Made by a program: the position numbers and the translations under genes. The notes below the pieces were generated by a model. The model worked only from the letters and a program-made list of their open reading frames with translations. It made no database searches and was not told the DNA's origin. From Geothrix sp. (lineage in GTDB: Bacteria > Acidobacteriota > Holophagae > Holophagales > Holophagaceae), in NCBI RefSeq assembly GCF_030219325.1, contig NZ_CP126625.1, positions 558,001 through 622,000 of the forward strand: a stretch of 64,000 bases of DNA, given 5' to 3'. This document shows positions 4,397 through 27,309 of this stretch, one piece after another. Numbering within the stretch: the first letter of the stretch is position 1; each line of letters opens with the position of its first letter.

Positions 4397-4426
4397 GGCG
4401 TGGTTCCAATAGCAGGCCCGTTCCGG

Positions 4427-4498
4427 CTGCCCGCTTACGGCGGGCAGTCAACTCCAGGCCGGAGGCCTGGAGCCTGTCGAGGTGCGGGTGGGAACCTC
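4427..4498. repeat. Tandem hairpin element B
   Basis: Three consecutive stems between two convergent genes: 8 bp at 4427-4447, then TCAAC, 9 bp with GGA loop at 4452-4472, and a weak GAGGT/ACCTC stem at 4479-4498. The first stem and the TCAAC linker match element A at 3056. The GGAGCCTGTC tail of the second stem matches the hairpin at 9088. There is no T run. Confidence 0.65.
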
Positions 4499-4504
4499 GA
4501 CCAC

Positions 4505-5410
4505 CTACGACCCGAATTCCTCCGGGCTCAACCCCTGCAGGTACCGCGTGAGCAGCTTCTGCTTCTCGTGGTTGGCCTTCACCTTCTTCTGGTAGATGGA
4601 GAAGCGGTCCTCGGCGGGGCGGATGGCGGGGAAGAGGGCCACGAGATCGCCCCGCTGGAGCTCGCCCAGCACGCTGTAGCGGGGCACCAGCAGGGCGCCC
4701 ATGCCTTCGACGGCGGCATGGATCATGGCGCGGATGTGATCCACGGCGATGATCCGGTCCAGCTGCGGCTGCTCATGGTCCGGCACGGCCATGAGGAAGC
4801 GGTTCCACCAGGCGCCGGCCTTGTCCAGGGAGAGGACGGGCCCACGGGAAAGGTCTGCCGGCACGCGCAGCCGGTGCGCCTTCCGGAAGGCCTTCGAGCA
4901 GGCCACCACGTAGGTCTCCCGGAACAGAGGCGACTTCTTCAGCGCGGGAAGGGGGTGTTCCTGGCAGTCGATGATCAGGTCGAGGTCGTCCCGCAGCAGC
5001 GGCCCCAGCAGATCGTGACTCAGGGTGAAGTCGATCTCCAGGCCCGGGTTCGCGGCCAGGAACGGCTGCATGTGCTTCATGAGGATGCTGCTGCCGAACT
5101 CCACGGTGGTGCCCACGCGGAGGCGCCCCATGGCGAGGGACTGGTGCCGGCGCAGGTCGTCCGCGGCCGCATCCAGGGTGGCGAAGACCTGCTCGCAGGC
5201 GAGGTAGAGCCGGCGGCCCTCTTCGGTCAGACCCAGCTCCCGGCCCCGGCGGGCCAGGAGGGGAACTCCCGCCAGGTCCTCCAGCTTGGCCATGGCGTGG
5301 CTGACGGCCGACTGGGTGCGGTGGAGTTTCCGGGCACAGGCCGTGAAGCCACCCGTCTGGGCCAGGGTGTAGAAGGTGCGCAGCTGGGGCAGATCGAGCA
5401 GGGCGTCCAT
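4505..5410 (-). CDS. LysR-family transcriptional regulator
   Basis: A 301-residue regulator. The N-terminal winged helix-turn-helix reads LPQLRTFYTLAQTGGFTACA followed by LHRTQSAVSHAMAKLED. The rest is the periplasmic-binding-protein-like effector domain. It is divergent from the ALDH7-type aldehyde dehydrogenase at 5500 with an 89-base gap holding a palindrome, so it probably controls that gene in response to a pathway intermediate. ATG codons at 5410 and 5416 are both possible; 5410 leaves the palindrome free of coding sequence. Confidence 0.9.
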   Translation of the reverse strand: MDALLDLPQLRTFYTLAQTGGFTACARKLHRTQSAVSHAMAKLEDLAGVPLLARRGRELGLTEEGRRLYLACEQVFATLDAAADDLRRHQSLAMGRLRVGTTVEFGSSILMKHMQPFLAANPGLEIDFTLSHDLLGPLLRDDLDLIIDCQEHPLPALKKSPLFRETYVVACSKAFRKAHRLRVPADLSRGPVLSLDKAGAWWNRFLMAVPDHEQPQLDRIIAVDHIRAMIHAAVEGMGALLVPRYSVLGELQRGDLVALFPAIRPAEDRFSIYQKKVKANHEKQKLLTRYLQGLSPEEFGS

Positions 5411-5414
5411 GATC

Positions 5415-5442
5415 ATGAATCATATTCATGTTGATCGTGAAT
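5415..5442. promoter_or_regulatory. Candidate LysR operator between regulator and aldehyde dehydrogenase
   Basis: A perfect 15-bp palindrome (ATGAAT-CAT-ATTCAT, 5415-5429) overlaps an ATTCA-N9-TGAAT inverted repeat at 5424-5442. The latter fits the T-N11-A half-site pattern of LysR-type regulators. It lies in an AT-rich gap between two divergent genes of a GC-rich genome. Binding is inferred. Confidence 0.55.
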
Positions 5443-5499
5443 CGAATGAATTTCTTAATTGAAACGAAATTAGTTACAAATGGAACCAGGAGGATGGCC

Positions 5500-9114: not shown

Positions 9115-11343
9115 TCAGGAAAGATGCTGTTTGACGACTTCCACCACTTCCGGGAAGGCATCCAGGCCCAGCTCCTTCAGCCGTTCCAGGGTCGGAACGC
9201 CGTCCAGGGTCCAGCCCCGGCGGGTGTAGACGCTGTCCATGAGCTGGGAGAACCGGCCGGTGCGCCATTTCCGGTGCAGGGCCATCTTCTCTTCGGTGGT
9301 CTTGCCCTTGGGATCGAGGCCCATCTCGGTGACGATCTGCTGGTCATAGCGCTCGGCGCGGGATTCGTACTCTTCCTTCGTCACGGGGCCGAGAGAACGG
9401 TAGGGTGCGGCATCGTGCAGGCGCAGGCCCTTGCCCATGCGGATGTTGAACACGCGCTGGAAGTTGTAGACCTTCGCGGACTGCACGATGAGGTCTTCCT
9501 TGGTGATCCTGATCCCCGTGGTGGCGGTGAAGAGATCCACGTAGTTCTGCACATGCTCGGGCACCTTGTGGGCCTCGGGCTGCTCGGAGTTGTTGGCGGG
9601 CACCACGTCGTTCCAGGGCAGCTTGCAGAAACCGTTCAGGCCGAACCAGGTGCGGAACAGGGGGAAGTAGTAGAGCGCTTCGGCCTTGTCCTCGAAGGTG
9701 GGCAGCTGCTTGTTCACCATGTCCATGAAGATCAGCCAGGCCTCGTCATGCTGCGGGCCCTTGTTGGTGAGCGCGTAGCCGCCCTGCTGGGCCAGCGATT
9801 CCTTCGACATGTACTGGGAGTACTCGAGGCCCTTGTTCTCCATGCCGATGTCATTGATGAGCTGGGGGTCGCCCCAGCCATTCTTGATGAAGTGTTCCTT
9901 CATCTTCTTCACGCCCATGCCGGCGATCTTGCCGAAGCCTTCGCCACGGGCCATCTGGTGCATCATCTCGAGGTCGGCCTCGGCGTTGCCCCAGACCATC
10001 TCCAGGCCGCCGGTGCGCTCCTTGTTCAGGATGCCGCGCTGGTAGCACTCCATCACGAAGGCCGTGAGCGTGCCGTAAGTGATGGTGCAGATGCCGTAGG
10101 TGTCGCAGTAGAAGTTCAGCTCGAGCAGGTAGTCGGGATCGAACACGCCGCAGTTGGAACCCAGACCCGCCGCGTTTTCGTACTCGGGGCCGTCCACCGT
10201 GACCATGTCGCCCTGGTAGGGGCCGGTCTTGAGGACGAGGCCATCAGCACCCTTGGCACAGGCCATGGAGCAGCCGTACCAGCAGCCGTCGACGGTGTGC
10301 TGCGTGCAGCGCTGCTGCCAGTAGCTGCTGTCGATCTTGTGGACATCGGGGTGCGAGCCGAACTGGAAGTTGTGGACGGGCAGCAGGTCGTAGGCGTCCA
10401 TGATCTCGACGATGTGCGCGGTGCCATTGCGGCGCATCATGCACTGGGTGCCGTCGTTCTCGCGGATTTCCTTGTGGTATTTCACGCCGGTCTTGGCGAT
10501 GGTCTCGGGATCCACGGGATGGTTGAGGTCGCCGGCCACCTTGGGCCCACGCACCACCAGGGCGCGGATGCGCTTGTTCCGGAACACGGTGCCGATGCCG
10601 CCCCGGCCCGCCTGCTTGAAGCGGACGCACTTGCGGCGGCGGTCGTAGAACGAGAAGTTCAGCATGCCGATGAGGCTGTGCTCGGCGGCGGCGCCCGTGG
10701 ACACCACGGAGATGTTGGGCAGGTCCGCCTCGTTCTCGGCGTACATGTGGGTGAGAATTTCCGCCAGGACATGGCTGTCCACGGGGTCCGTGGGAGCTTC
10801 CTCGATGCGGATGATGCCCTTCTGGCCATCGATGAACAGGATGATGTCCTTGTCGGACTTGCCCTGCAGCTCCAGCGCGTCGAAGCCCGAGAACTTGAGC
10901 AGGGGACCGTAGAAGCCGCCCACGTTGGAATCGATGGGGATGTCCGTCTGGGGCGAGAGGCTCACCACCAGCGACTTGCCGGTGCCCGCGTACTGGGTCA
11001 TGCCCGACACAGGCCCGGGGCTGATGATGATCTCGTTCTCGGGATCGTTCCACCGGGTGGTGGGCTTCACCGCGTTCCAGAGGTGGTAGAGGCCGAAGCC
11101 GCGGCCGCCGATGAAGACGTCCTTCATCTGCTGGGTGACGGGCTTCTCCTTGATCTCAAGGGTGTCCACGTTCACGTACAGCGTGCGGTTGGTGTAGCCC
11201 TTGTCCGGCAGGCTGGGCGTGTAGGTGATCTCCTTCAGCACCTTGTGCGCGGCCTTGATGGCCTCGAGCCCGTCGAGGTACTCGGTGCGCTTGGTGTAGT
11301 CGATGTTCATCACCTTGCTGGGATCGAAAACGAGCTGGCTCAT
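9115..11343 (-). CDS. Tungsten-dependent aldehyde:ferredoxin oxidoreductase family protein
   Basis: A 742-residue AOR-family enzyme, expected to carry a bis-pterin tungsten site and one [4Fe-4S] cluster and to interconvert aldehydes and carboxylic acids. The N-terminal AOR domain contains GGRGFGLYHLW and SPGPVSGMTQYAGTGKS, typical pterin-contacting segments. Cluster cysteines are in DGCWYGCSMAC (C-x3-C-x3-C, where the archetype has C-x2-C-x3-C), with a late cysteine in NGFCKLPWND. It is longer than typical AORs of about 610 residues and nearer the size of YdhV-like members. It sits between a four-cluster ferredoxin and a MoaD-like protein, downstream of tungstate transporter genes. Natural substrate and electron acceptor are unknown. 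Confidence 0.92.
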   Translation of the reverse strand: MSQLVFDPSKVMNIDYTKRTEYLDGLEAIKAAHKVLKEITYTPSLPDKGYTNRTLYVNVDTLEIKEKPVTQQMKDVFIGGRGFGLYHLWNAVKPTTRWNDPENEIIISPGPVSGMTQYAGTGKSLVVSLSPQTDIPIDSNVGGFYGPLLKFSGFDALELQGKSDKDIILFIDGQKGIIRIEEAPTDPVDSHVLAEILTHMYAENEADLPNISVVSTGAAAEHSLIGMLNFSFYDRRRKCVRFKQAGRGGIGTVFRNKRIRALVVRGPKVAGDLNHPVDPETIAKTGVKYHKEIRENDGTQCMMRRNGTAHIVEIMDAYDLLPVHNFQFGSHPDVHKIDSSYWQQRCTQHTVDGCWYGCSMACAKGADGLVLKTGPYQGDMVTVDGPEYENAAGLGSNCGVFDPDYLLELNFYCDTYGICTITYGTLTAFVMECYQRGILNKERTGGLEMVWGNAEADLEMMHQMARGEGFGKIAGMGVKKMKEHFIKNGWGDPQLINDIGMENKGLEYSQYMSKESLAQQGGYALTNKGPQHDEAWLIFMDMVNKQLPTFEDKAEALYYFPLFRTWFGLNGFCKLPWNDVVPANNSEQPEAHKVPEHVQNYVDLFTATTGIRITKEDLIVQSAKVYNFQRVFNIRMGKGLRLHDAAPYRSLGPVTKEEYESRAERYDQQIVTEMGLDPKGKTTEEKMALHRKWRTGRFSQLMDSVYTRRGWTLDGVPTLERLKELGLDAFPEVVEVVKQHLS

Positions 11344-11357
11344 GGGGTTCCCTTTTC

Positions 11358-11780
11358 TCAGATGATCCGGACCGGCGGCTCGGGGACGTCCACGATGGAG
11401 AGCGCGCCGTGGGGGCAGACCTTCACGCAGACGCCGCAGGACGTGCACTTGTGGGGCGTGATCCAGTCGGAGTTCCGCATGAAGGCGTCCTTCTCGCAGA
11501 ATCCGATGCACATGTAGCAGCCCACGCAGATCTTCTTGTCGATCATCACGACGCCGAGCTTGTTGCGCTTGAGGGCCTCGGTGGGACAGACCACCACGCA
11601 GTCGCCGCACTGGTCGCAGAGGATGGCGTGGCCGCCGCCCTCTTCGTAGGCCTTGATCTGAAGGGCGGCCTGGGCGGGATCGTCCACCTTGAAGACCTTG
11701 ATGGCGCACTCCAGCTCGCACTCGTGATTGCAGTTGCGCCCTGCATCACACTTCTGGAAATCGATGACCAGCTGTTTCAT
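11358..11780 (-). CDS. Ferredoxin with four [4Fe-4S] cluster motifs (AorA-like)
   Basis: A 140-residue iron-sulfur protein with 16 cysteines in four groups: an N-terminal set (CDAGRNCNHECELEC), CDQCGDCVVVCP, CVGCYMCIGFC and CTSCGVCVKVCP. Each can ligate one [4Fe-4S] cluster. This matches the AorA subunit that carries electrons for the tungsten AOR of Aromatoleum and the HycB/YdhY-type proteins. The stop is 14 bases before the oxidoreductase start, so the two are co-translated and probably form a complex. The ATG at 11780 gives the family's MKQLVID-type N-terminus. Confidence 0.88.
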   Translation of the reverse strand: MKQLVIDFQKCDAGRNCNHECELECAIKVFKVDDPAQAALQIKAYEEGGGHAILCDQCGDCVVVCPTEALKRNKLGVVMIDKKICVGCYMCIGFCEKDAFMRNSDWITPHKCTSCGVCVKVCPHGALSIVDVPEPPVRII

Positions 11781-11824
11781 GGCGCTCGCGTCTCCGGACG
11801 GTTCGGGGGGACAAAAACCAACGA

Positions 11825-11844
11825 GGGATGGCATGGCCATCCCC
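11825..11844 (-). terminator. Weak hairpin between tupC and the AOR genes
   Basis: A perfect 8-bp stem with an ATG loop (11825-11843). On the minus strand it is followed, after a few bases, by GTTGGTTTTTG. It could be a leaky terminator that lowers or separates AOR expression from the upstream tup genes. Confidence 0.4.
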
Positions 11845-11889
11845 TTGTCGAGGCTAGTCCTGGGCCGTTATCCGGGCAATGGATACCGG

Positions 11890-13008
11890 TCACACTTCGG
11901 GGCCGAGACCTTCCTTGCGTATGAGGTGCACGGAGGTGGCCTTGAAGGAGGCCACCACGGGGCGGCCCGGCCGAAGCTCCAGTTCCGACAGGGATTGGGC
12001 CGTGACGAAGGCCGTGAGGAAGAACCCGCAATCCAGCTCGATCTTGAAGAAGGGACCCCGGGGTATGACCTTGGTCACAGCCCCCGGAAAGGCGTTCCGG
12101 GCGCTGCTGGCGTTGTCGGAGTGTAAAGACAGGGCCACGTGCTCGGGGCGGACCCCCACCAGGACGGTCTGGCCGGGCTCGGCCTCCCCCAGGGCCACGA
12201 CCTCGCCGCTGCCGGTCCCCTTCCGGATCCGCAGGGTGAGCAGGCCTTCCCGGCAGTCGGCCACCTGCCCCTTGAGCAGGGTCTCCATGCCGACGAAGGC
12301 GGCGACGAAGGGATCCTCCGGGTGGTTCGTGACCTTCCGGAGCCCTCCCCGCTGGATGATCCGGCCGTCCCTCATGACCGCCAGCCGGTGCGCCAGGCGG
12401 GCGGCCTCGCCCTGGTCGTGGGTGGCGATCACGGCGGTGGTGCCAGTCTCGGCCAGCAGGTGGCCCAGGTCCCCGATGAGCTCCTCGCGGGCCTGGGGAT
12501 CCAGGGCCGCGAAGGGCTCGTCCAGGAAGAGGATCTCCGGATTCAGGACGAAGGCCCGGGCCAGGGCCGTGCGCTGGGCCTCGCCCCCGGAGAGCTGGTG
12601 GGCAGGGCGATCCAGCAGGGCGCCCAGGCCCAGCTGTTCGGCCCAGGCCACCACCCGGGGCTTCCACTCAACGGCGGAGAGGCCACGCAGCTTCAGTCCG
12701 GAGGCGATGTTCTGGGCCACGGTGGCGTCGAAGAGGAGCGGGTCCTGGAACACCATGGTCGTGCGGCGGCGGAAGGCCTCCCGGTCGCCCTTCCCCTGGA
12801 GGGTCGAGCCCTTGAATTGCACCGCCCCGGCCGAGGGGGCCAGGAGGCCCGCCAACGTGAGCATCAGGGTGGTCTTCCCCGCGCCGTTGGGTCCCATGAG
12901 GGCCAGTACTTCGCCGGTCCGGAGGTCCAGCTCCGGGATCTCCAGCACTTTCACGGCGCCGCGGTGGACCGTGAGGTCTCGCGCCTCGAGGATGCGTTCC
13001 CGGCTCAT
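11890..13008 (-). CDS. tupC: Tungstate ABC transporter, ATP-binding protein
   Basis: A 372-residue ABC ATPase. It has Walker A GPNGAGKTT, signature LSGGEAQRTALARA, Walker B ILFLDEPFAALD and the switch histidine in ATHDQGEA. About 130 C-terminal residues form a TOBE/MOP-like region, common in molybdate and tungstate importers and possibly oxyanion-sensing. Its start overlaps tupB by four bases (ATGA), showing translational coupling. With TupA and TupB it would import tungstate, which suits the AOR genes 110 bases downstream. Confidence 0.9.
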   Translation of the reverse strand: MSRERILEARDLTVHRGAVKVLEIPELDLRTGEVLALMGPNGAGKTTLMLTLAGLLAPSAGAVQFKGSTLQGKGDREAFRRRTTMVFQDPLLFDATVAQNIASGLKLRGLSAVEWKPRVVAWAEQLGLGALLDRPAHQLSGGEAQRTALARAFVLNPEILFLDEPFAALDPQAREELIGDLGHLLAETGTTAVIATHDQGEAARLAHRLAVMRDGRIIQRGGLRKVTNHPEDPFVAAFVGMETLLKGQVADCREGLLTLRIRKGTGSGEVVALGEAEPGQTVLVGVRPEHVALSLHSDNASSARNAFPGAVTKVIPRGPFFKIELDCGFFLTAFVTAQSLSELELRPGRPVVASFKATSVHLIRKEGLGPEV

Positions 13009-13703
13009 GACCGCCGCCCGCGCTGCTGGAGGTGGGTGAGCAGGGCGTTCACGGAGAAGGCCAACACCAGCAGGATGAGGCTGAGGGCGATGGCCACGTC
13101 GAAGTTGCCCTTGCCGGTCTCCATCACCGTGGCGGTGGTCAGCACCCGCGTCTGGCCCTTGATGTTGCCGCCCACCATGATCGAGGCGCCCACCTCCGAG
13201 ATCACGCCGCCGAAGCCGGCCATGACCGCGGCCAGGAGCGGAAGCCGCGCCTCCTTGAGCAGCAGCCACACCATCTGCGGGCGGGAGGCGCCCAGGGCCA
13301 GGATCTGCAGGCGGAGCCCCGGGGGCAGGTGCTGCAGGGCGGCGAGGCTGATGCCCGCGATGATGGGTGAGGCGATGACGGCCTGAGCCAGGATCATGGC
13401 CGAGGGCGTGTAGAGGATGCCGAGCGAGCCCAGCGGGCCGTTGCGCCAGAGCAGCACAGTCACGAAGAGGCCCACCACCACGGGCGGCAGGCCCATGCCG
13501 GTGTTCAGCAGTGCGATGACCAGCCGCTTGCCGGGAAACTCGTTCAGGGCCACGGCCACGGCCACCGTCAGGCCGAGGACCAGGCTGATGAGGGTGGCGA
13601 CCCCGGAGACCTGCAGGGACAGCCAGGTGATCCGGAGGACCTCGGGATCCAGCGTGAGCAGAAGCTCCAGCGCTTTCCGGAGGCCCTCCCAGATCAGGTC
13701 CAA
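13005..13703 (-). CDS. tupB: Tungstate ABC transporter, permease
   Basis: A 232-residue inner-membrane permease with five to six hydrophobic helices. The EAA-type cytoplasmic loop that docks to the ATPase is around ALGASRPQMVWLLLKEARLP. The GGVISEVGASIMVGGNIKGQTR segment is characteristic of TupB/WtpB-like permeases. It overlaps tupC and follows pruA by only eight bases, so it is expressed from the same transcript. Confidence 0.9.
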   Translation of the reverse strand: MDLIWEGLRKALELLLTLDPEVLRITWLSLQVSGVATLISLVLGLTVAVAVALNEFPGKRLVIALLNTGMGLPPVVVGLFVTVLLWRNGPLGSLGILYTPSAMILAQAVIASPIIAGISLAALQHLPPGLRLQILALGASRPQMVWLLLKEARLPLLAAVMAGFGGVISEVGASIMVGGNIKGQTRVLTTATVMETGKGNFDVAIALSLILLVLAFSVNALLTHLQQRGRRS

Positions 13704-13711
13704 AGCCGCTC

Positions 13712-15343
13712 CTACTCAGCTTCCATGAACGGGAACTTGATGTCCCGGGGAGGCGTGAAGCTCTCCTTGATGGTGCGCGGGGAGGTCCAGCGGATCAGGT
13801 TCAGGAAGCTGCCGGCCTTGTCGTTGGTGCCCGAGGCCCGGGCGCCGCCGAAGGGCTGGTGGCCCACCACGGCCCCGGTGCACTTGTCGTTGATGTAGAA
13901 GTTGCCCGCGGTGTTGGCCAGGGCCTCCGTGAGCTGGTTGATGACGTAGCGATCCCGGGCGAAGATGGCGCCGGTGAGGGCGTAGGGCGAGGTCCCGTCC
14001 AGCACCTTCAGCGTCTCGGCGAGCTGGGCGTCGTCGTAGACGTAGATGGTGACCACCGGGGCGAAGATCTCCTCCTCCATGGTCACGAACTTGGGATCCG
14101 TGGTGAGGATGACCGTGGGCTCAATGAAGTAGCCCTTCGACTTGTCGCCCTTGCCGCCGGCGATGATCTTGGCGTCCTTGGCGTTCCGGGCCAGCTCGAT
14201 GTACTTCATCGTGCTGTCGAAGGCGGCCTCGTCGATGACGGCGTTGAAGAAATTCCGGAAGTCGCGCACGTCGCCCATCTTCACCTCGGCCAGCAGGCCC
14301 AGGATGAGCCCCTGCATCTCGGTCCAGCGGGAGGCGGGGATGTAGACGCGGGAACAGGCCGAGCACTTCTGGCCCTGGTACTCGAAGCCGGCGCGGACGA
14401 TGGCGGCGGCGGTCTCCACCGCATCGGCGGAGGCGTGCATGAAGATGTAGTCCTTGCCGCCGGTCTCACCCACCAGCCGGGGATAGCTTTTGTAGCGGGG
14501 CAGGTTGTCGGAGATGGTCTTCCACATGCTGTTGAAGACCCCCGTGGAGCCCGTGAAGTGGAGGCCCGCGAAGTCGCGGTGCTCCAGGGCGATCCTGCCG
14601 ATCATGGAGCCGCGGCCGGGGATGAAGTTGATGACGCCATCCGGCAGACCCGCTTCCTTGAAGAGCTGCATCAGGTAGTAGTTCGACAGGATGGAGGTGG
14701 AGGCCGGCTTCCAGACCACCGTGTTGCCCATGATGGCCGGGGCCGTGGCGAGGTTGGCGCCGATGGCCGTGAAGTTGAAGGGCGTCACCGCCAGGACGAA
14801 GCCTTCCAGGGCCCGGTAGTGGACCCGGTTCCACACGTGGGGATCCGAGATGGGCTGCTGCTGGTAGATCTGCTCCATGAACTTCGCGTTGAAGCGGAAG
14901 AAGTCCGCCGTTTCGCAGGTGCTGTCGATCTCCGCCTGGTAGGCGCTCTTCGACTGGTTGAGCATGGTGGCGGCGTTGAGGATGTAGCGGTACTTCGAGG
15001 AGATGAGGCTGCCCATCTTGTGGAAGATGGCGGCGCGGTCCTCCCAGGGCGTGGCCTCCCAGTCCTTCTTGGCGGCCAGGGCCGCGTCGATGGCCAGGCG
15101 CACCTCGGCCTCGCCGGCCTCATGGTAGGTGGCCAGCACGTGCTGGTGGTCGTGGGGGCAGACGGCCTTCTGCGTCTTTCCGGTGCGCACTTCCCGGCCG
15201 CCGATGATGAGCGGGATGTCGAGCTGCTGGTTGAACTGCCGGTCCAGCTCGGCCTTCAGGAGGGCGCGCTCTCTGGATCCGGGGGCGTAGGGGAGGATGG
15301 GCTCGCTGTGGGAATCGGGCAGGCTGAAGATGGCGTTCGACAT
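13712..15343 (-). CDS. pruA: L-glutamate gamma-semialdehyde (1-pyrroline-5-carboxylate) dehydrogenase
   Basis: A 543-residue ALDH4-family enzyme that oxidises glutamate-5-semialdehyde to glutamate with NAD+, the second step of proline catabolism. The family features are the general base in VGETGGKDYIF, the catalytic cysteine in EYQGQKCSACSR and the C-terminal NDKCTGAVVGHQPFGGARASGTNDKAG. Length agrees with mitochondrial-type P5C dehydrogenases rather than the bifunctional PutA. It is inserted between tupA (23 bases upstream) and tupB (8 bases downstream), an odd place for a proline gene. No proline dehydrogenase is in the window. Confidence 0.94.
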   Translation of the reverse strand: MSNAIFSLPDSHSEPILPYAPGSRERALLKAELDRQFNQQLDIPLIIGGREVRTGKTQKAVCPHDHQHVLATYHEAGEAEVRLAIDAALAAKKDWEATPWEDRAAIFHKMGSLISSKYRYILNAATMLNQSKSAYQAEIDSTCETADFFRFNAKFMEQIYQQQPISDPHVWNRVHYRALEGFVLAVTPFNFTAIGANLATAPAIMGNTVVWKPASTSILSNYYLMQLFKEAGLPDGVINFIPGRGSMIGRIALEHRDFAGLHFTGSTGVFNSMWKTISDNLPRYKSYPRLVGETGGKDYIFMHASADAVETAAAIVRAGFEYQGQKCSACSRVYIPASRWTEMQGLILGLLAEVKMGDVRDFRNFFNAVIDEAAFDSTMKYIELARNAKDAKIIAGGKGDKSKGYFIEPTVILTTDPKFVTMEEEIFAPVVTIYVYDDAQLAETLKVLDGTSPYALTGAIFARDRYVINQLTEALANTAGNFYINDKCTGAVVGHQPFGGARASGTNDKAGSFLNLIRWTSPRTIKESFTPPRDIKFPFMEAE

Positions 15344-15366
15344 GGGTGCTTTCTCCTTCCGGCGTC

Positions 15367-16203
15367 CTATTCCTGGATGCCGGCATCAGGGAAGAATAGC
15401 GGTGAGCCAAAGGTTGCGATTCCGAATTCTTTGATGCGTGCCTGGACATCTTTCGACACCAGGAAGTCAGCAAAGGCGCGGGCTCCGGCCGCATTCACCT
15501 TGGGAAACCGCGCGGGATTTACCTCGATGACGTGGTAGACATTCCGGAGGGACGGATCGCCTTCGTGGAGGATGGCGAGCCCCAGTTTTTTCTGCAGGGC
15601 TAGGTACGTGCCCCGGTCTGACAATGTGTAAGCCCGCTTCTCGGCGGCGATGGCCAGTGTCTGGCCCATGCCCTGGCCGGTCTGCTGGTACCAGGCCTGG
15701 CCTTCGGCGGTGACGCCCGCGGCCTTCCACAGCTTCAGCTCCATGGCATGGGTGCCGGAGTTGTCGCCCCGGGAGAGGAACGTCGCCTTCGCAGCGGCGA
15801 TCCGCTGGAGACTTTCCAGGGCCGTGCGCTTCGTGATGCCGGCGGGATCGGCGGGGGGCCCTAGCAGCACGAAGTCGTTGTGCATGACGATGCGCCGGTT
15901 CACGCCGGATCCATCGGCCACGAGGGTCTTTTCGGCCTCGGGGGAGTGGACCAGCAGCACGTCGGCCTCGCCGCGCTTGCCCATGGCGATGGCCTGGCCC
16001 GAACCCACGGCGATGGTCTTCACCACATAGCCTGTCTGCCTTTCGAAGCGGGGGATGAGGTCGTCCAGCAGGCCGGAGTCCTGGGTGCTGGTGGTGGTGG
16101 CGAGGATCAGGGTCCTTTCGGCGGGCGGCGCGGCCGCCAGGCAGGCGGAGGAGAGCGCCGTGGCCAGCGCCAGGCCCCATCGCAGGATCGTGGATCGGTT
16201 CAT
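15367..16203 (-). CDS. tupA: Tungstate ABC transporter, periplasmic binding protein
   Basis: A 278-residue exported solute-binding protein. An N-terminal signal peptide ends near residue 24 (SSACLAAAPPAERT). The TupA oxyanion signature follows as LATTTSTQDSGLLDDLIP, and the second binding loop is FLSRGDNSGTHAMELKLW. Both are typical of TupA rather than ModA. GGAGG five bases before the ATG supports the start. It is the first gene of the tup-pruA-tup-AOR run, and a ModE-box-like palindrome lies at 16216-16243. Confidence 0.93.
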   Translation of the reverse strand: MNRSTILRWGLALATALSSACLAAAPPAERTLILATTTSTQDSGLLDDLIPRFERQTGYVVKTIAVGSGQAIAMGKRGEADVLLVHSPEAEKTLVADGSGVNRRIVMHNDFVLLGPPADPAGITKRTALESLQRIAAAKATFLSRGDNSGTHAMELKLWKAAGVTAEGQAWYQQTGQGMGQTLAIAAEKRAYTLSDRGTYLALQKKLGLAILHEGDPSLRNVYHVIEVNPARFPKVNAAGARAFADFLVSKDVQARIKEFGIATFGSPLFFPDAGIQE

Positions 16204-16215
16204 GTCAGCCTCCGG

Positions 16216-16243
16216 TTCGCTAGTTTCGCAGGGATATAACGGT
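16216..16243 (-). promoter_or_regulatory. ModE-box-like operator upstream of tupA
   Basis: Two 11-base half-sites, TTCGCTAGTTT (16216-16226) and GATATAACGGT (16233-16243), are separated by exactly six bases. By my alignment to the E. coli ModE consensus (ATCGCTATATA-N6-TATATAACGAT) they match at 7 of 11 and 9 of 11 positions. The site sits directly above the tupA ribosome-binding site, next to a gene for a ModE-type protein, so metal-dependent repression is plausible. Confidence 0.55.
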
Positions 16244-16283
16244 CGGAACAGCCAGGCGTGTGCTTGTTTTGCGGATCGTCACA

Positions 16284-16643
16284 TCAGTCCAGCAGGCGCT
16301 TCCGGAATTCCCGGACATCCTCCTCGATGGCCTTGAAGGCCTTGGCCTGGATCCGGCGGAAGCGGGTGAGGGCCTCCTGGCCCAGCTCGGTCACCACCGC
16401 GCCGCCGCCCCGCAGGCCACCCTTGGCGGCGGTCACCACGGGGCTGGGGAAGCACTGGTTCATCTCATCCACCAGCATCCAGGCCTTGCGGTAGCTCATG
16501 TCCAGCTCCCGCGCCGCCGCGGAGATGGAGCCGGTGCGGCCGATGGCCTCCAGCAGATCGGCCTTGCCCTGCCCGATGGCGATGTTCTCGCCCACCGCGA
16601 TGCGGATGCGGATGGTGACGGCCGAAGGGGCGGGCTTGGTCAT
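16284..16643 (-). CDS. ModE-type winged-helix regulator without an effector domain
   Basis: A 119-residue protein corresponding to the N-terminal DNA-binding half of ModE. The helix-turn-helix region GRTGSISAAARELDMSYRKAW is the LysR-like ModE signature and VVTAAKGGLRGGGAVVTELG is the wing. The molybdate-binding MOP/TOBE domains of full-length ModE are missing, so metal sensing must occur by another route. AAGGA lies seven bases before the ATG at 16643. It sits upstream of tupA on the same strand, with the operator-like site between them. Confidence 0.85.
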   Translation of the reverse strand: MTKPAPSAVTIRIRIAVGENIAIGQGKADLLEAIGRTGSISAAARELDMSYRKAWMLVDEMNQCFPSPVVTAAKGGLRGGGAVVTELGQEALTRFRRIQAKAFKAIEEDVREFRKRLLD

Positions 16644-16715
16644 GGCGGATTCCTTGAGTCCGACCATTTCAGCACAGAGCCGGATGCCGGGGCTGGATTC
16701 TGCTAGAACAAAGGC

Positions 16716-17159
16716 ATGGATCCCACGGGTGCGGACAGGTCGGCGCGCAGCAACCTCATGGCCCTGCTCTTTCCGGAAGCGCCCCGGCACTTCCCCTGGG
16801 CCCGGCCGGCCCAGCTGGTGCTGCGCAGCCTCCACATCGCCGCCATGGCCATGGTGGTGGGGGCCCTCCCCTTCGGCGCCCCCTTCGAGGCGCTGCGGCT
16901 TCCCATCCTCCTCACGCTGGCCAGCGGCGTGCTGCTCTTCGCCATCGACCTCGCCCGGGACCTGGCCATCCTCAGCCAGGGCAGCGGCGTGGCCGTGCTG
17001 CTGAAGCTGGGCCTCCTGGGCCTGGGCGCCCTGCAGCCCGCGGACCGGCTGCCCTGGTACCTGGCCGCCACCCTGGTGGCCTCCGTGGGCTCCCACATGC
17101 CCGGTTCCTGGCGGCATTTCTCCTTCCTCAGCTGGAAGGTGATGAGGTATCCCGACTGA
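16716..17159 (+). CDS. Four-helix membrane protein coupled to moeA
   Basis: A 147-residue protein with about four hydrophobic segments (roughly residues 40-55, 60-78, 84-104 and 112-126). Histidines fall in the first helix (RSLHIAAMAMVVG) and near the C-terminus (GSHMPGSWRH). I do not recognise the family. The stop codon overlaps the moeA start (TGATG), so both are translated together, and the gene is divergent from the ModE-like regulator. That links it to molybdenum or tungsten use, but a direct role is only inferred. Confidence 0.6.
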   Translation: MDPTGADRSARSNLMALLFPEAPRHFPWARPAQLVLRSLHIAAMAMVVGALPFGAPFEALRLPILLTLASGVLLFAIDLARDLAILSQGSGVAVLLKLGLLGLGALQPADRLPWYLAATLVASVGSHMPGSWRHFSFLSWKVMRYPD

Positions 17160-18382
17160 TGCCCACGCCCGCCGAAGCCCTCGCACTCATCCTGGATCGG
17201 GTCGCGCCCCGGTCCCCCCGGCGCCTGCCGCTGGAAGCCATCCTCGGCATGGCCGCGGCAGAGGACCTGGTCTCCACGGCCACGGTGCCGCCCTTCACGA
17301 ACTCCGCCATGGACGGCTACGCCGTGCGGGCCATGGATCTGGCGGACGCTTCGCCGGAGCAGCCCGTCCGCCTGCGCGTGCTGGGTGATCTGGCCGCGGG
17401 GGGCGTTCCGCTCAGCGCCGTGGGGCCGGGCGAGGCCCTGCGCATCATGACCGGCGCGCCCATGCCCGAGGGCGCCGACTCGGTGGTGCCCGTGGAGGAC
17501 ACGACCCGGGGCGAGGATTGGGTGGAGACCGCCAAGTCCCTGCGGCCGGGCATCCACATCCGTCTGGCGGGTGAGGACCTGCGTGCGGGGCAGCTGCTCG
17601 TGAAGGCGGGGCAGGGGCTGCGGCCCGGCGACCTGGGCGTGCTGGCGGCGGCGGGAATCCCCACGGTGTCCGTCCATCCCCGCGTCCGCGTCGCCGTGCT
17701 CACCACAGGCGACGAGCTGGTGGACGTTTCGGAGGAGCCAGGCCCCGGCCGCATCCGGGATGCCAACATCCACGCAGTGTGTGCCCAGGTGTCCGCCTGC
17801 GGGGCGATTCCCGCCCCTTTTCCGAGGGTGCCGGACGACCGCGCCACGCTGATGGGCGTGCTGCGCCAGGCCCTGGAGGCCGACGTGGTCCTCACCACGG
17901 GGGGCATCTCCGTGGGCGACTACGACTTCATGAAGGCCATGCTCGAGGAGCTGGGCGCCGAGCGGATCTTCTGGAAGGTGGCGCAGAAACCCGGCGGCCC
18001 GCTGGGCTTCTGGATGCTGGGCAGCAGGCCCATCTTCGGCATCCCCGGCAATCCCGTGGCCGCCATGCTCATGGTCGAGGAGTATGTCCGCCCCGCGCTG
18101 CGCAAGCTCATGGGCTTCGCGAAGCTCCACCGCCCCGTGGCCCAGGCCCGCCTGGAGGACGGCTGGACCGGTCGCACGGACCAGCGCACCACCTTCCTGC
18201 GCGTCGTGGCGCGGCGGGAGGCGGACGGCCTCCACGCTCGCACCACCGGGCCCCAGGGCTCGGCCATCCTGTCCTCCATGCTCAGCGTCAACGCCCTGGC
18301 GGTGATCCCCGAGGGCGTGGCCCGCGTGGAACCGGGCGGCACCGTGCAGCTGCACCTCACGGAAGAGGCCGAGGATCACTGA
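17159..18382 (+). CDS. moeA: Molybdopterin molybdenumtransferase
   Basis: A 407-residue MoeA. It inserts the metal into adenylylated molybdopterin in the last step of cofactor assembly. The motifs seen are PPFTNSAMDGYAVR at the N-terminus, IMTGAPMPEGADSVVPVE, TTGDELVD and TTGGISVGDYDF, then GIPGNPVAAM. All four MoeA domains fit, including the C-terminal beta-barrel. In this setting, close to tup and AOR genes, it may insert tungsten. Its last bases overlap the convergent amidohydrolase pseudogene by seven bases. Confidence 0.95.
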   Translation: MPTPAEALALILDRVAPRSPRRLPLEAILGMAAAEDLVSTATVPPFTNSAMDGYAVRAMDLADASPEQPVRLRVLGDLAAGGVPLSAVGPGEALRIMTGAPMPEGADSVVPVEDTTRGEDWVETAKSLRPGIHIRLAGEDLRAGQLLVKAGQGLRPGDLGVLAAAGIPTVSVHPRVRVAVLTTGDELVDVSEEPGPGRIRDANIHAVCAQVSACGAIPAPFPRVPDDRATLMGVLRQALEADVVLTTGGISVGDYDFMKAMLEELGAERIFWKVAQKPGGPLGFWMLGSRPIFGIPGNPVAAMLMVEEYVRPALRKLMGFAKLHRPVAQARLEDGWTGRTDQRTTFLRVVARREADGLHARTTGPQGSAILSSMLSVNALAVIPEGVARVEPGGTVQLHLTEEAEDH

Positions 18383-22630: not shown

Positions 22631-24994
22631 TCACCGCTTCGGCAGGATGGCCGCGAAGGTGGCCTGGAGCTCCCGGAAGCTGAAGGGCTTGGCCAGGATG
22701 GTCACGCCCTGGATGGCGCGGGCCAGGTCCAGGGCCCGCTGATCGGCCCGGCCCGTGGACAGCAGGATGGGTACCTCCGGCAGGGCGGCCCGGAGCCGCG
22801 GCAGGGTGCGGGCCCCGCCCCAGCCAGGCATGTTCATGTCGAGGATGACCACGTCCGGCCGGAAGCCCTGGTTCACCAGCTCCATGGCCTGCTCGCCGCT
22901 GGAGGTGACGGTGGCCTCGTGCCCCATGGCCTCGAGCTGCGCCGCGACCGAGCTCTGGATCAACTCGTCGTCGTCCACCAGCAGGATGCGGCAGGAGGCG
23001 CCCGACTGGGTGGCCTCATCCTCCTCCCGGGTGGCCGGTTCCACCTGGGTGGGGACCGACTGGAAGCGCATCTCGACGGTGGTTCCCAGGCCCAGCCGGC
23101 TCTGGATGCTCAGGTCGCCGTGGTGGGCCTTCACGGTACTGTAGGCCAGGGACAGTCCCAGGCCGGTTCCCTTCCCCTGGGCCTTGGTCGTGTAGAAGGG
23201 TTCGACGGCGTGCTCGAGCGTCTCCGGGGACATGCCGCTGCCCGTATCCGCCACGGTGAGGAGGACCCGGCCGTCCGTCAGATTCCGGGTGCCCAGCGTG
23301 AGGTTGCCCCCCTCCGGCATCGCATCCACGGCGTTCACGCAGAGGTTCATGAGGACGAGGCTCAGGGCATCGGGATCACCGAGGATGGTCCCCACCTGGG
23401 GGTCGAGATCCAGCCGGATGGCGACGTTCGCGGGGATGGTCCGCTCCAGCAGACGGGCTTCTTCCTGGACGAGGCCGTTGAGGGACACCGAGCGTTCGCC
23501 GGTCATGTCCTTCCGGGCGAAATCCAGCAGGCTCTTCACCATGTTCCGGCCCCGCAGGCAGGCCTTCGTGATGGTCTGGAAGGTGCTGTGAAGCCGGGTC
23601 CCCTCCGGCTGCAGGTCCAGGTTCGTGGTGGCGAGGCCGAGGATCGCCCCCAGCACATTGTTCATGTCGTGGGCCAGGCCGCCCGCCAGGTTGCCCAGGC
23701 TTTCCATTTTTTGGGCAAGACGGAGGGCCTCCTGGGTCTGGATCTCGTCGGTGATGTCGCGGAAGACGGCGAGGCTGCCCGTGACCTGGCCCGCCGCGTC
23801 CCGGCGGGGGGTGGCGGTCAGCTGCAGGGTGCGTCGCGTGCCGTCGGCCCTGCGGATGTGGGTCTGGTAGGAGTCGGTCTGCCCATCCACGCGGCGCGTC
23901 GTCTGGGCCCTCGCCTGGTGCCAGTCGACGTCGTCCATGAAGGTACGGAGGTTCTGGCCGATCAGCGGATTGGACCCCACCCCGAAAATGCGGGCCGCCT
24001 CCGGGTTGGCCATGATGATCGTCTCGTGGAGGTCCGTGGCGGCCACGCCCTCCCCGAGGATCTCGATCAGCTCCCGGTGGTGCGCCTCGCTCTCCCGCAG
24101 GGAGCTCTCCGCTTCCGCCTTCTCGGTGAGGTCCCGGATGAAGCCGATGATCATGTCCCGGCTCGGGATGTGGGTGGTGGACACCTCCACGGGGAAGGAG
24201 GAGCCATCCTTCCGCTTGTGCCGGGACTGGAAGCGGTCCATGCCCTCGGCCTTCATCTTCTCGGTGTGCTGGTCGGTCTCGGTGCGGGTCTCATTGGCCT
24301 CCAGGGCGGAAACGTGCAGGGTCCGCAGTTCCTCGATGGAATAGCCGGTCATCCGTGCATAGGCCTCGTTGGCATCGAGGAGATCGCCGCGGCCGTTCAC
24401 CAGGACGAAGCCGTCCAGGTTCGTCCGGAGCAGAGCCCGGTACTCCTCGGCCTGGGCGACGACCTTCTCCTCCTGGGACTCGAAGTGGAGGGCGTTGCGC
24501 AGGATCAGGGCGAACACCGGTGACAGCACGTCCAGCATGTGGATGACGTCGTCCGTGCGCTGGAGGTCCAGGTGGTCGAGGGCGATGAGGGTGCCCACCC
24601 GCAGGCCGCCCACGCGGAGCGGCGTCAGGCTGAGGGACTTGATCTCCAGGCTGCCCAGGGCCTCGCCGATGGCCTTCGGCACCAGGGGCTGGAAGTAGAT
24701 GGTTGCGTTCTTCGGGTCGGGATCGGCCTTGATGACCTGGCCCAGCCCCGCGAGCAGGTTCCCGTTCCTCGCCCGCTCGGGCTCGAGCGCCACGATCCGG
24801 ATGGGATTGCGCTGGAGGTCGGACCCGTGCTGGAGCATTGCCACGGCCCGGACGCCGAGCACCTCCCGGAGCTTGCGCGTCAGGAACCGGCCCATTTCGG
24901 CGGGGCTCTCCGAGAACCGCAGGATCTCGGCGAGCAGGTCCACGATCATGAACTGGACGGCAGCGGCGTCGGTCCTCTGGTTGCGCTCAGTCAT
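22631..24994 (-). CDS. GAF-PAS-PAS hybrid histidine kinase, last gene of the corrinoid operon
   Basis: A 787-residue soluble kinase with no membrane segment. A GAF-like region (about residues 15-170) is followed by two PAS domains (about 180-300 and 305-420). The HisKA box is GGLAHDMNNVLG and the ATPase domain has LMNLCVNAVDAM, DTGSGMSPE and GTGLGLSLA. The receiver domain (about 670-785) has its phospho-aspartate in VVILDMNMP. No DNA-binding output is present. Its start overlaps the DUF1638 gene by eight bases, so it is translated with the corrinoid genes and may report on methyl-group or corrinoid status. The 3' end abuts the convergent peptide transporter. Confidence 0.9.
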   Translation of the reverse strand: MTERNQRTDAAAVQFMIVDLLAEILRFSESPAEMGRFLTRKLREVLGVRAVAMLQHGSDLQRNPIRIVALEPERARNGNLLAGLGQVIKADPDPKNATIYFQPLVPKAIGEALGSLEIKSLSLTPLRVGGLRVGTLIALDHLDLQRTDDVIHMLDVLSPVFALILRNALHFESQEEKVVAQAEEYRALLRTNLDGFVLVNGRGDLLDANEAYARMTGYSIEELRTLHVSALEANETRTETDQHTEKMKAEGMDRFQSRHKRKDGSSFPVEVSTTHIPSRDMIIGFIRDLTEKAEAESSLRESEAHHRELIEILGEGVAATDLHETIIMANPEAARIFGVGSNPLIGQNLRTFMDDVDWHQARAQTTRRVDGQTDSYQTHIRRADGTRRTLQLTATPRRDAAGQVTGSLAVFRDITDEIQTQEALRLAQKMESLGNLAGGLAHDMNNVLGAILGLATTNLDLQPEGTRLHSTFQTITKACLRGRNMVKSLLDFARKDMTGERSVSLNGLVQEEARLLERTIPANVAIRLDLDPQVGTILGDPDALSLVLMNLCVNAVDAMPEGGNLTLGTRNLTDGRVLLTVADTGSGMSPETLEHAVEPFYTTKAQGKGTGLGLSLAYSTVKAHHGDLSIQSRLGLGTTVEMRFQSVPTQVEPATREEDEATQSGASCRILLVDDDELIQSSVAAQLEAMGHEATVTSSGEQAMELVNQGFRPDVVILDMNMPGWGGARTLPRLRAALPEVPILLSTGRADQRALDLARAIQGVTILAKPFSFRELQATFAAILPKR

Positions 24995-25592
24995 GGTGGC
25001 CTGCGGTCTGGATGGCCTGTCTCAGGTTGGCGAGCAGGGGATCGAGGGAGACGGGGAGGATTTCCACGGGGAGGCCCAGGAATTCGCTGGCCCCGGCGAG
25101 CTCTTCATGGGGCACGGGCAGGATGCCAGTATCAAGGTAGATCAGCCGCGTGTGCAGTTCCTGCATGAAGGTCTTCGCGCAGGGGCCCAGGAGGCCCAGC
25201 TGCCCCACGAAGACCTGCCGCCAGGAGCGGGCCCATTCCGGCATGAGGAAGAAGGCGCCCTCCCGGCGGAGCTTCCGGTAGGTCTCGCGGCCGAGGACGA
25301 TTTCGCAGCAGTTGATCCCCTGGGTCCGGGTGGTCCCGGGCTCCGCTTCGAAGTCCTCCATGTGCCCGCAGCAGTCGCCGTAGGCGATGACCACATCCCG
25401 GTCCGGGTCCTGCCTGCGGGCCGCCTCGAGAGCCTCCTGGAGCCGCACCTCGAGTTTCGCCGGGACCATGTGCAGCATTGAATTCAGGTACTCCACGGGC
25501 AGGTCGAGCCTGCCCGAGGCCTGCAGGGCCTCGAGCTCCTTCCGGAAGATCGAACAGGCGATGCACCGCACGCGACGGGGATCCTGGTTCAT
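24987..25592 (-). CDS. DUF1638-domain protein
   Basis: A 201-residue protein of the DUF1638 family. It is cysteine-rich near the start (RCIACSIFRKEL) and has the family segment YGDCCGHMEDF followed by GINCCEIVLG, plausible metal or cluster ligands. DUF1638 genes commonly neighbour corrinoid proteins and MtbA/UroD-type methyltransferases in anaerobes, but no activity is established that I know of. It overlaps the methyltransferase gene upstream by four bases and the kinase downstream by eight, so all are translationally coupled. Confidence 0.85.
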   Translation of the reverse strand: MNQDPRRVRCIACSIFRKELEALQASGRLDLPVEYLNSMLHMVPAKLEVRLQEALEAARRQDPDRDVVIAYGDCCGHMEDFEAEPGTTRTQGINCCEIVLGRETYRKLRREGAFFLMPEWARSWRQVFVGQLGLLGPCAKTFMQELHTRLIYLDTGILPVPHEELAGASEFLGLPVEILPVSLDPLLANLRQAIQTAGHHD

Positions 25593-26614
25593 GCGGGGAC
25601 CCGCCCGGCCCGGCACACGGCGTCGGTGAGCGCCTCGATGCACTCCGGAGGGGTGTCCAGGGGGATGTCGGCGCAGCAGGTCGCCAGGGCGAATTGCTGA
25701 TCCGGGCCACGCTGCGCCAGGGCCCGGTCGCACAGGACCCCGACCTCGTCCGGGCGAAGTCCCGCCAGGTCGGGGCCGCTGAGGTTCCCCAGCAGGAGCG
25801 GGCCTGCGCCCAGCACCCTCCGGGCCTCGCCAAGGTCTTCGCCGGCATCGAGGACATAGCCCACGACGTTCGGGTGGCCCATGAAATCGCCGAGGTGGGG
25901 GAGCAGGGGGCAGCCTCCGTGGTGCAGGATGACGGGGCCGGGGATCTCGGCCAGGGCCTCTCTGAGCGCGGGTCGGCCCAGGGTTTCCACCACCCGTTCG
26001 GGGACGATGAAGCGGTTGGTCAGGTTGGCGGTCAGGGCCAGCGCAGTGGCGCCGTCGCCCAGCATGGCCTTGCCGAGGGCGGCGAAGAAGGGCGTCAGGC
26101 GGTCGAGGAGGGCCCGGGCGACCTCCGGCTGGAACAGGAGGGCATCCAGCCAGGCCTCGAGGCCGATGATGAGCGGCGGCAGGTCGAGGGGACTGACCAG
26201 GAGCCCGATGACGGGGACCCGGCCCGCGTACCTCCCGGCGAGCAGGCGGATGCTCTCCCGCAGGTAGAGGATGCCCGGGTGGCTGTCCACGTCGGGCAGC
26301 GGCAGCCTGAGCGCCGCCTCGGCGGATTCCGCCGCGAAGGCGGCCACATTGGGCGGCTGGCGGAGACTGGAGGTCACCCGGCTGCCGAAGGCCTCGCCGA
26401 GGCCGGCCAGGACGAAGGGGCTGATGAGGAAGTCGGGGCTGAAGGTCTCGAGGATGGCGACCTGGCCCTCGACGTAGACCGCGGGATCCCGGTAGTGATC
26501 CTTGAGGGAGGCGCCCGTGAGCTTCGCTCCGTAGAGCCCGGCGTTGAGGAGCAGGAGGGGCCGGTCGGCCGGCTGGTCCTGGAGGGCGGCCATCAACCGC
26601 TCGAGGCTGTTCAT
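25589..26614 (-). CDS. MtbA/UroD-family corrinoid methyltransferase
   Basis: A 341-residue TIM-barrel protein of the uroporphyrinogen decarboxylase superfamily. The neighbours make it a methylcobamide:acceptor methyltransferase rather than a heme enzyme. Probable zinc ligands are HHGGC (about residues 235-239) and a CC pair in LATCCADIPLDTP near the C-terminus. The canonical MtaA/MtbA motif is HxC, so the spacing here is unusual. NLSGPDLAGL fits the family segment before the last strand. It overlaps both neighbours by four bases. The methyl acceptor, such as coenzyme M, tetrahydrofolate or another thiol, cannot be read from the sequence. Confidence 0.85.
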   Translation of the reverse strand: MNSLERLMAALQDQPADRPLLLLNAGLYGAKLTGASLKDHYRDPAVYVEGQVAILETFSPDFLISPFVLAGLGEAFGSRVTSSLRQPPNVAAFAAESAEAALRLPLPDVDSHPGILYLRESIRLLAGRYAGRVPVIGLLVSPLDLPPLIIGLEAWLDALLFQPEVARALLDRLTPFFAALGKAMLGDGATALALTANLTNRFIVPERVVETLGRPALREALAEIPGPVILHHGGCPLLPHLGDFMGHPNVVGYVLDAGEDLGEARRVLGAGPLLLGNLSGPDLAGLRPDEVGVLCDRALAQRGPDQQFALATCCADIPLDTPPECIEALTDAVCRAGRVPA

Positions 26615-27309
26615 GGCAGGGCACGCAGGGGGGTGGGGTCCAGGTTCAGGGAGCGCTGCCAGAGCCGCTCGAACAGGGCCGAGGCCTCCAGGGCGCTGGT
26701 GGCGGTGCCATCCCCGCCCAGGTCCGACACCAGCTCGGGTCGCAGCTTGAAGACGGCGCCCCCCACGGCGAGCTGGACCTTGCCGGTCAGTCCGCGCCGG
26801 TCGATCTCCGCCCGGATCCGGGCCACGTTCTTGGCGGTGGTGTACATCATGGCCGAGGCGCCGATCACCCGCGCCCCGGTCTCTTCGGCCTGATCCACGA
26901 ACTGGGCCGGCGGGACATCCACGCCCAGGTCGCGCACGTCCCAGCCGGCGGTCCGGAGGAAGGCCACGACCATGTTCCGGCCGAGAGGATGGAAATCATC
27001 CTCGACGTTGCCCAGGAGCACCGGCCCCTTGGAGGGGAGGATCGGGCCGCCATCGGGGCTGGATTCACGCAGCAGCCTGGACAGGACATCTTCCGCGACC
27101 TTCGAGGCCACGTAGCCGGTGGCGAGGGAGACGCCGCCATGGCCCTGGGACCAGAGCGTCCCGAAGGACTCCAGGGTGGGGGACAGCAGCTCCGGGACCA
27201 CCTGGCTGAAGGAACGGCCGACGGCCCAGGCGTCGACCACGGCCGCCGCGCCGGCACGGTCGGCCCGCTCGATGGCGTCGAGCAGTTCCTGGCAGTAGTT
27301 CCGATCCAT
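26611..27309 (-). CDS. Corrinoid (B12-binding) methyl-carrier protein
   Basis: A 232-residue protein of the MtaC/MtbC type. The N-terminal helical cap domain covers about residues 1-90. The Rossmann-like B12 domain has the base-off ligand motif as DDFHPLG (DxHxxG), the serine segment IGASAMMYTT and the glycine turn LAVGGAVF. It carries a methyl group on cobalt between two methyltransferases. It is the first gene of a four-gene overlapping operon. No substrate-specific methyltransferase (MttB, MtaB or MtbB type) and no RamA-type activator is in the window. Confidence 0.92.
   Translation of the reverse strand: MDRNYCQELLDAIERADRAGAAAVVDAWAVGRSFSQVVPELLSPTLESFGTLWSQGHGGVSLATGYVASKVAEDVLSRLLRESSPDGGPILPSKGPVLLGNVEDDFHPLGRNMVVAFLRTAGWDVRDLGVDVPPAQFVDQAEETGARVIGASAMMYTTAKNVARIRAEIDRRGLTGKVQLAVGGAVFKLRPELVSDLGGDGTATSALEASALFERLWQRSLNLDPTPLRALP

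Follow-up and report, generated by a model that had tools for sequence, protein, structure and literature searches.

Introduction

Cobalamin in signalling is known mainly from riboswitches and light sensors. The CarH/AerR cobalamin photoreceptors use a B12-binding domain for signalling and act as adenosylcobalamin light sensors without methyltransferase subunits. Here, we analysed a locus of Geothrix sp. in which genes for a corrinoid protein, a UroD-fold protein and a DUF1638 protein (the triad) are followed by a hybrid histidine kinase gene. The locus lies in a window of 64,000 nucleotides (positions 558,001 to 622,000 of NZ_CP126625.1, a single contig of 3.73 Mb), to which all coordinates without a locus handle refer. 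The explanation that we favour overall, with a probability of roughly 0.62, is a self-contained, portable, corrinoid-based sensory input module. Such a module would share with CarH/AerR the use of a B12-binding domain in signalling, and it differs from them in lacking the CarH motif.

Several described systems resemble the locus in part. The RamA/RACo systems with DUF1638, which serve glycine betaine demethylation and a split methionine synthase, have the corrinoid protein and DUF1638 in common with the module (PMC5764234, PMC12478193). In Phaeobacter inhibens, split methionine synthase requires both DUF1638 and a RamA-like protein (PMC5764234), and DUF1638 is more abundant in Ruegeria pomeroyi on N-osmolytes (PMC12478193); because of these findings, an action of DUF1638 on the corrinoid state is supported. 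These systems contain RACo and separate methyl-donor and methyl-acceptor enzymes, and no kinase is reported adjoining them. Unlike them, the module includes a UroD protein and lacks RACo; a kinase or cyclic di-GMP (c-di-GMP) enzyme is encoded in its operon or fused into one of its proteins; and its corrinoid and DUF1638 proteins belong to different clades. The methylcobamide:coenzyme M (CoM) methyltransferases MtaA/MtbA (4ay7) are of the UroD-type TIM-barrel family and work with a corrinoid protein, as in the module, but their zinc motif (HxC...C) is absent from all 69 module members. The mec dichloromethane cassette likewise unites a corrinoid protein, methyltransferases and a two-component system, and differs in its MecA kinase with a PocR sensor, its MTI/MTII enzymes and a described make-up without DUF1638-GAF coupling (PMC9768040). 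In Methanosarcina, the sensor kinases MsmS and RdmS are also tied to methyltransferase genes; they lack an H-box, and RdmS has no autokinase activity (PMC11784639), whereas the window kinase has a normal H-box (GLAHDMNN) and a receiver and stands behind corrinoid, UroD and DUF1638 genes. The parallel with MsmS drawn in an earlier note on this DNA is therefore weak.

An open-access literature search, with subscription papers and preprints outside its scope, returned no description of the module, and the portions of the open-access DUF1638 literature consulted held no link to kinases. Among described arrangements, the mec cassette and the methyltransferase-associated kinases of Methanosarcina come closest, and both differ in make-up. 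The input module, with a biochemistry that is predicted, appears to be new; its output half is ordinary.

Recurrence of the triad with a signalling output

The four genes lie on the minus strand in the order corrinoid (B12-binding) protein (26611-27309; 232 amino acids (aa), with cap and B12-binding domains), UroD-fold methyltransferase homologue (25589-26614; 341 aa, a putative receptor or methyl-transfer subunit), DUF1638 protein (24987-25592; 201 aa, a candidate coupler of the corrinoid protein to the kinase) and hybrid histidine kinase (22631-24994; 787 aa). Successive genes overlap by 4, 4 and 8 bp in the open reading frame list of the window. The earlier note had described four such overlapping genes, with which the reading frames, overlaps and Pfam families agree; its term 'translationally fused' goes too far, since the window genes are only coupled by overlap and true DUF1638-kinase fusions exist in relatives.

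A PF07796 search of 60 relatives returned 17 positive genomes, all of the same genus. All 12 loci whose DUF1638 is closely related, the window locus among them, showed the order corrinoid-UroD-DUF1638-kinase, as did a distant thirteenth locus of the genus (L013); at L031, also of this genus, a RACo reactivase gene stands in front of the module and a multi-PAS hybrid kinase behind it. About 85,000 species genomes were then scanned, which yielded a cross-phylum set of 59 loci, mostly from metagenome-assembled genomes (MAGs) and including Geothrix and Geomonas isolates. These loci came from Acidobacteriota, Planctomycetota, Clostridiaceae, Desulfobacterota and Geobacter relatives, Bacteroidota/Ignavibacteria, Chloroflexota, Spirochaetota, Verrucomicrobiota and others. 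Custom hidden Markov models (HMMs) and neighbour analysis revealed that a kinase or GGDEF gene comes next after the triad, in most cases overlapping it by 4 to 14 bases, or that DUF1638 is fused to such a protein. Since all same-genus genomes with a close DUF1638 relative share this order, and it returns across phyla, the arrangement is far beyond chance.

The census of outputs covered 65 non-duplicate triads from at least eight phyla, and 52 of them had a signalling output directly after the triad or fused at DUF1638. These outputs comprised 46 histidine kinases recognised by HMM, 4 GGDEF proteins, 1 HD-GYP protein (L207) and 1 kinase with a HisKA_2-like sequence that the HMM missed (L066); in a further 4 triads, the contig end fell inside a GAF-PAS protein. 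By Pfam, the output types were HisKA, HisKA with receiver, HisKA_2, kinase-receiver-Hpt, GGDEF and HD-GYP. Across the triads the input part is constant and the output part varies.

Two random draws with the Pfam model, free of the bias of a search pattern, gave a concordant picture. The first, from the phylum of Geomonas, comprised 247 genomes, of which 62 had DUF1638, and 52 regions were analysed; in the raw table all 4 triads had an output, and among the non-triads 1 had an output and 49 did not (Fisher P = 1.6e-5). The second, from the phylum of a Clostridiaceae MAG, comprised 299 genomes, 82 with DUF1638, and the 60 regions analysed were 20 high-scoring, 20 intermediate and 20 lowest-scoring DUF1638 loci; its raw table held 3 triads with output, 1 without, 0 non-triads with output and 57 loci with neither (Fisher P = 1.1e-4). 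The non-triad with output in the first draw is L209, whose corrinoid gene is off the contig. The triad without output in the second (L239) was dropped from the module, as its UroD match is weak (42 bits), its genes are ordered differently and its DUF1638 is of the catabolic class. Overall, an output followed 7/7 full triads (4/4 and 3/3) compared to 0/106 other DUF1638 loci, with the contig-cut L209 left out. The possibility, raised in the earlier note for such a gene-neighbourhood check, that homologous operons nearly always lack the kinase is contradicted, a kinase or other signalling output being present in nearly all triads.

Fusion of DUF1638 to outputs and its cognate GAF domain

The window DUF1638 protein matched PF07796 at 1.6e-26 (93.5 bits; gathering cut-off 27). 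In relatives, DUF1638 is fused to the output in several forms: DUF1638-GAF-HisKA-HATPase-REC as one 1,051-residue protein (L036 and L037, same genus), DUF1638-GAF-PAS-HisKA_2 (L057), DUF1638-PAS-GGDEF (L035, same genus; L087 and L264) and DUF1638-GAF-PAS-PAS-HD-GYP (L207). In L032-L034, of the same genus, DUF1638 carries a 220-residue C-terminal domain and no output.

The window kinase comprises a module-specific N-terminal GAF domain (24440-24994, minus strand as for all kinase features; residues 1-185), two PAS domains (23753-24415; residues 194-291 and 306-414), a kinase core of HisKA (433-496) and HATPase_c (539-645) at 23060-23698, and a Response_reg receiver (22658-22987; residues 670-779), all but the GAF domain by Pfam. 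The motifs GLAHDMNN (H-box), DTGSGM, GTGLGLS and, in the receiver, DMNMPG were present. With HisKA and H-box, HATPase_c and a receiver with its Asp, the protein is a hybrid histidine kinase, and judging by its domain make-up it is soluble.

The GAF domain scored below the Pfam cut-off (19.6 bits) and was identified by structure: the AlphaFold model (predicted local distance difference test (pLDDT) 89) matched the solved GAF domains 3k2n (1.8e-7) and 3cit (1.1e-6). An HMM seeded only with Acidobacteriota-type kinases found the domain in all 25 other separate-kinase-class proteins tested (52-157 bits); it is thus common to downstream signalling proteins of different phyla. Among 38 relatives, full-length matches (170-224 bits) occurred once per genome and at the DUF1638 locus only; the remaining matches were partial and below 29 bits, the next best reaching 28 bits. 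In the fused class, the domain that follows DUF1638 was homologous to the kinase GAF (hhalign probability 95%, E 4e-8). These results indicate that the kinase GAF domain is specific to the DUF1638 locus.

Some loci carry additional features. At L022 (29-8164, genome G004), the same strand also encodes another hybrid kinase (885 aa, 3598-6255) just upstream of the module, and an integrase-like open reading frame is found close by, which hints at a recent transfer of the module. The Verrucomicrobia DUF1638-GAF proteins (L083:2375-3742 and L084:9668-11011) end in a cysteine-rich motif, ICxxCKKIRxDxGYWxQxExYIxxHSxAxFxHGxCPDC, a candidate for an output or metal-binding domain not yet recognised.

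Separation from RACo-linked catabolic systems

A tree of 121 DUF1638 domains was examined. The main RACo-associated clade (32 rows) contained zero signalling members. The other clades were solitary (21), fused or GAF-only signalling (22) and separate-kinase signalling (46), the last consisting of 45 signalling rows and one long-branch RACo row (L218). Three changes are needed on this tree between signalling and non-signalling, and the GGDEF (L055), HisKA_2-fusion (L057) and HD-GYP (L207) forms are nested among kinase forms. The corrinoid-protein tree separated the 38 sampled triad members from 43 members of other loci by one branch with support 100, and the window protein was placed on the signalling side via its 91%-identical orthologue L027. 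The cap-domain motif also differed, being SLAxxY in module corrinoid proteins and FLPE-like in catabolic ones.

RACo lay within 7 kb of 17/56 non-triad loci compared to 1/65 triads. It (PF14574) was not found in the window genome, and among 45 relatives searched it was detected only in G022, the genome with RACo in the operon. The remark in the earlier note that no RamA-type activator is present here thus extends to the whole window genome and to all but one of the 45 related genomes.

These data bear on the alternative that the locus is a catabolic methyl-transfer operon with a dedicated regulator, the trio demethylating a substrate and the kinase merely controlling expression. Related proteins do act in this way in catabolism and in the synthesis of methionine (PMC5764234, PMC12478193), the mec cassette joins corrinoid methyltransferases with a two-component system (PMC9768040), and RACo is included at L031. 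We nevertheless regard this alternative as improbable, given that conserved genes for a methyl acceptor enzyme, RACo or a transporter are lacking beside the module, that RACo is absent from the window genome, that DUF1638 is fused directly to histidine kinase, GGDEF and HD-GYP outputs, and that the signalling corrinoid and DUF1638 proteins are phylogenetically distinct from the catabolic ones.

In the regions examined for the solitary clade (L189, L191, L193-L202, L204 and relatives), corrinoid protein, UroD, RACo and kinase were not directly linked to DUF1638. In the catabolic clade, DUF1638 heads open frames of 955-985 residues at L172:6719-9673 and L213:6159-9023.

The UroD-fold protein and conserved cysteines of DUF1638

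The UroD-fold protein matched Pfam URO-D PF01208 at 8e-42 (143.9 bits; gathering cut-off 23.9), and its closest solved relative is the methylcobalamin:CoM methyltransferase 4ay7. Scores against family models fell far lower, at 66 bits for TIGR01463 (cut-off 235) and at 40 bits (NF040654, cut-off 400) and 37 bits (cut-off 600) for MtaA/CmuA/MtbA-type families. When aligned to 4ay7, the HxC position of the MtaA/MtbA zinc motif reads ILHHGGC in the window protein (25910-25930, minus strand), with the Cys at H+2 lost. Motif counts for UroD and corrinoid proteins covered 69 signalling triads; HxC was found in 0/69 UroD proteins, and the C-terminal Cys was not conserved either. Because the motif is absent in 69/69, the module UroD proteins are not thiol methyltransferases of the CoM type, and an MtaA/MtbA/CmuA-type identity is ruled out. 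Positions R18, D61, G77 and N89 were highly conserved in the 69 triads. The UroD-type protein could itself be the substrate-recognising subunit, which makes the earlier note's statement that the set has no substrate methyltransferase unsafe.

In DUF1638, C13, C74 and C95 were conserved alike in the catabolic, solitary and signalling classes, a pattern consistent with a metal or thiol centre. The AlphaFold model of the window protein (pLDDT 95) gave no significant match in a fold search of the PDB (best E 0.011), and a sequence search for solved DUF1638 relatives found none.

The locus might alternatively be a redox or low-potential sensor, in which the Co(I)/Co(II)/Co(III) state of the cobalt and the DUF1638 cysteines report reducing conditions and UroD only chaperones or gates the corrinoid. 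The lost zinc-thiol site of UroD and the three invariant cysteines would fit such a sensor; with no RACo keeping the cobalt reduced, its state could float with cell redox, and many hosts are, to go by organism names, anaerobes or metal reducers. On the other side, a full-length UroD-fold protein with R18, D61, G77 and N89 kept in 69 triads argues for a ligand or methyl-transfer role, and the cysteines, being equally conserved in catabolic DUF1638 proteins, are therefore no mark of redox sensing. On balance, we consider a redox sensor unlikely, although it is the strongest of the rival explanations.

The corrinoid protein

The corrinoid protein matched the Pfam B12-binding domain PF02310 at 5.5e-24, with the cap domain PF02607 under the cut-off, and reached 85 bits against the NCBIfam model TIGR02370 (methyltransferase cognate corrinoid protein), well short of its 215-bit cut-off. 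Its DxHxxG cobalt-ligand motif, DFHPLG, is encoded at 26980-26997 on the minus strand (residues 105-110). This motif was present in 68/69 signalling corrinoid proteins (the remaining one, L185, is truncated at a contig end), and all 69 kept the Ser and Gly-Gly motif positions. Because the window genome has seven B12-binding domains, a cobamide is probably in use in the host. A second corrinoid-binding protein (68-72 bits) was seen at L134:4292-4957 and L135:11968-12651, downstream of a DUF1638-kinase fusion.

A B12-dependent photoreceptor like CarH/AerR, working through the kinase, would also employ a B12-binding and a cap domain, and the window protein did match the CarH model, if weakly (2.2e-8, 34 bits compared to a cut-off of 400). 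The CarH-type W-x9-EH motif occurred in 0/69 signalling corrinoid proteins, and the mechanism has no place for UroD and DUF1638. The photoreceptor reading was ruled out on the motif test and is the least probable of all.

The conservation of the corrinoid-binding residues, the most conserved feature of the set, and the several B12-binding proteins encoded in the genome would also suit a sensor of corrinoid availability, reporting the loading of a cobamide or of a specific cobamide form. An Rfam scan of the window gave zero matches, including to the cobalamin riboswitch, and a promoter scan gave nothing exceeding chance level, so that a riboswitch clue is absent. An all-against-all search for neighbour genes common to divergent loci found none beyond the module and hence no clue to a target operon or ligand. 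With these findings, and with the UroD subunit left unexplained, an availability sensor appears very unlikely.

Neighbouring genes in the window

A divergent homogentisate-dioxygenase neighbour was considered as a hint of an aromatic ligand and ruled out, since it is missing in L021 and L023. Elsewhere in the window, an aldehyde:ferredoxin oxidoreductase gene (9115-11343) was recognised by a Pfam AFOR match. Near it lie, by appearance, tungstate/molybdate ATP-binding cassette transporter genes, a ModE-like regulator (16284-16667) and a MoeA-like gene (17159-18382). The region 9115-18382 is likely a tungsten-enzyme supply cluster, within which Pfam support covers the oxidoreductase only. The region 60001-62000 has a GC content of 0.554, compared to about 0.68 elsewhere, and few confident genes, and is possibly acquired DNA.

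Discussion

The comparative genomics revealed that the parts travel together across phyla, that DUF1638 is the part fused to the output and that the output type is exchangeable. The module stands phylogenetically apart from the catabolic RACo-linked systems and has no conserved metabolic neighbours. On this evidence the corrinoid-UroD-DUF1638 set is very probably a signalling input module. It would consist of four parts: a corrinoid protein dedicated to it, a protein of the UroD fold, DUF1638 and, at the head of a variable output, a cognate GAF domain. The output would be the PAS-PAS histidine kinase with its receiver here, and elsewhere other kinases, GGDEF or HD-GYP proteins. In the proposed mechanism, the UroD-type subunit would have as its ligand a small methyl donor or else a particular state of the corrinoid protein. 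Either the transfer of the methyl group onto the cobalt or some other shift in cobalt state would alter the corrinoid protein as methyl acceptor or state carrier; DUF1638 would then read the corrinoid state and relay it via the GAF domain, as transmitter, to set kinase or cyclase activity. We give an even chance to the signal being methylation of the cobalt by a methyl donor, which is the likeliest signal. The earlier note had suggested a methyl-state sensor rather than a catabolic pathway: the 'sensor' part is well supported by the triads with output and the scarcity of RACo, while 'methyl-state' is something that we infer.

Several points weigh against the sensory module that we favour. The interaction of its parts is inferred from gene order and fusion. 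RACo in the L031 operon means that at least one version of the module may cycle catalytically. The pattern for the cross-phylum scan was derived from this clade, so that uniformity is overstated; most loci outside Geothrix and Geomonas are MAG-derived; and the random draws contain few triads. In addition, 9/65 triads have a DUF1638-GAF-like protein without a recognised output (2 of these are contig-cut), and in the L031/L185/L187/L188 subclade the kinases start with another GAF-like domain, one not recognised by the module GAF model.

If the sensory module is real, a methyl-transfer apparatus would serve as a general input to two-component and c-di-GMP signalling, a new sensing chemistry spread over many phyla. 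It could represent a class of chemosensors in which a UroD receptor would methylate cobalt from a specific donor, DUF1638 would read the methyl-cobalt and the GAF domain would pass the signal to kinases, diguanylate cyclases or HD-GYP proteins; the odds on this full scheme are evenly balanced. In that case, the methyl donor sensed would vary between UroD lineages. The module would place much of the DUF1638 family in a concrete functional setting and explain otherwise orphan kinases, and it suggests how bacteria may detect methylated compounds such as methoxy-aromatics, methylamines, betaine and methyl sulfides.

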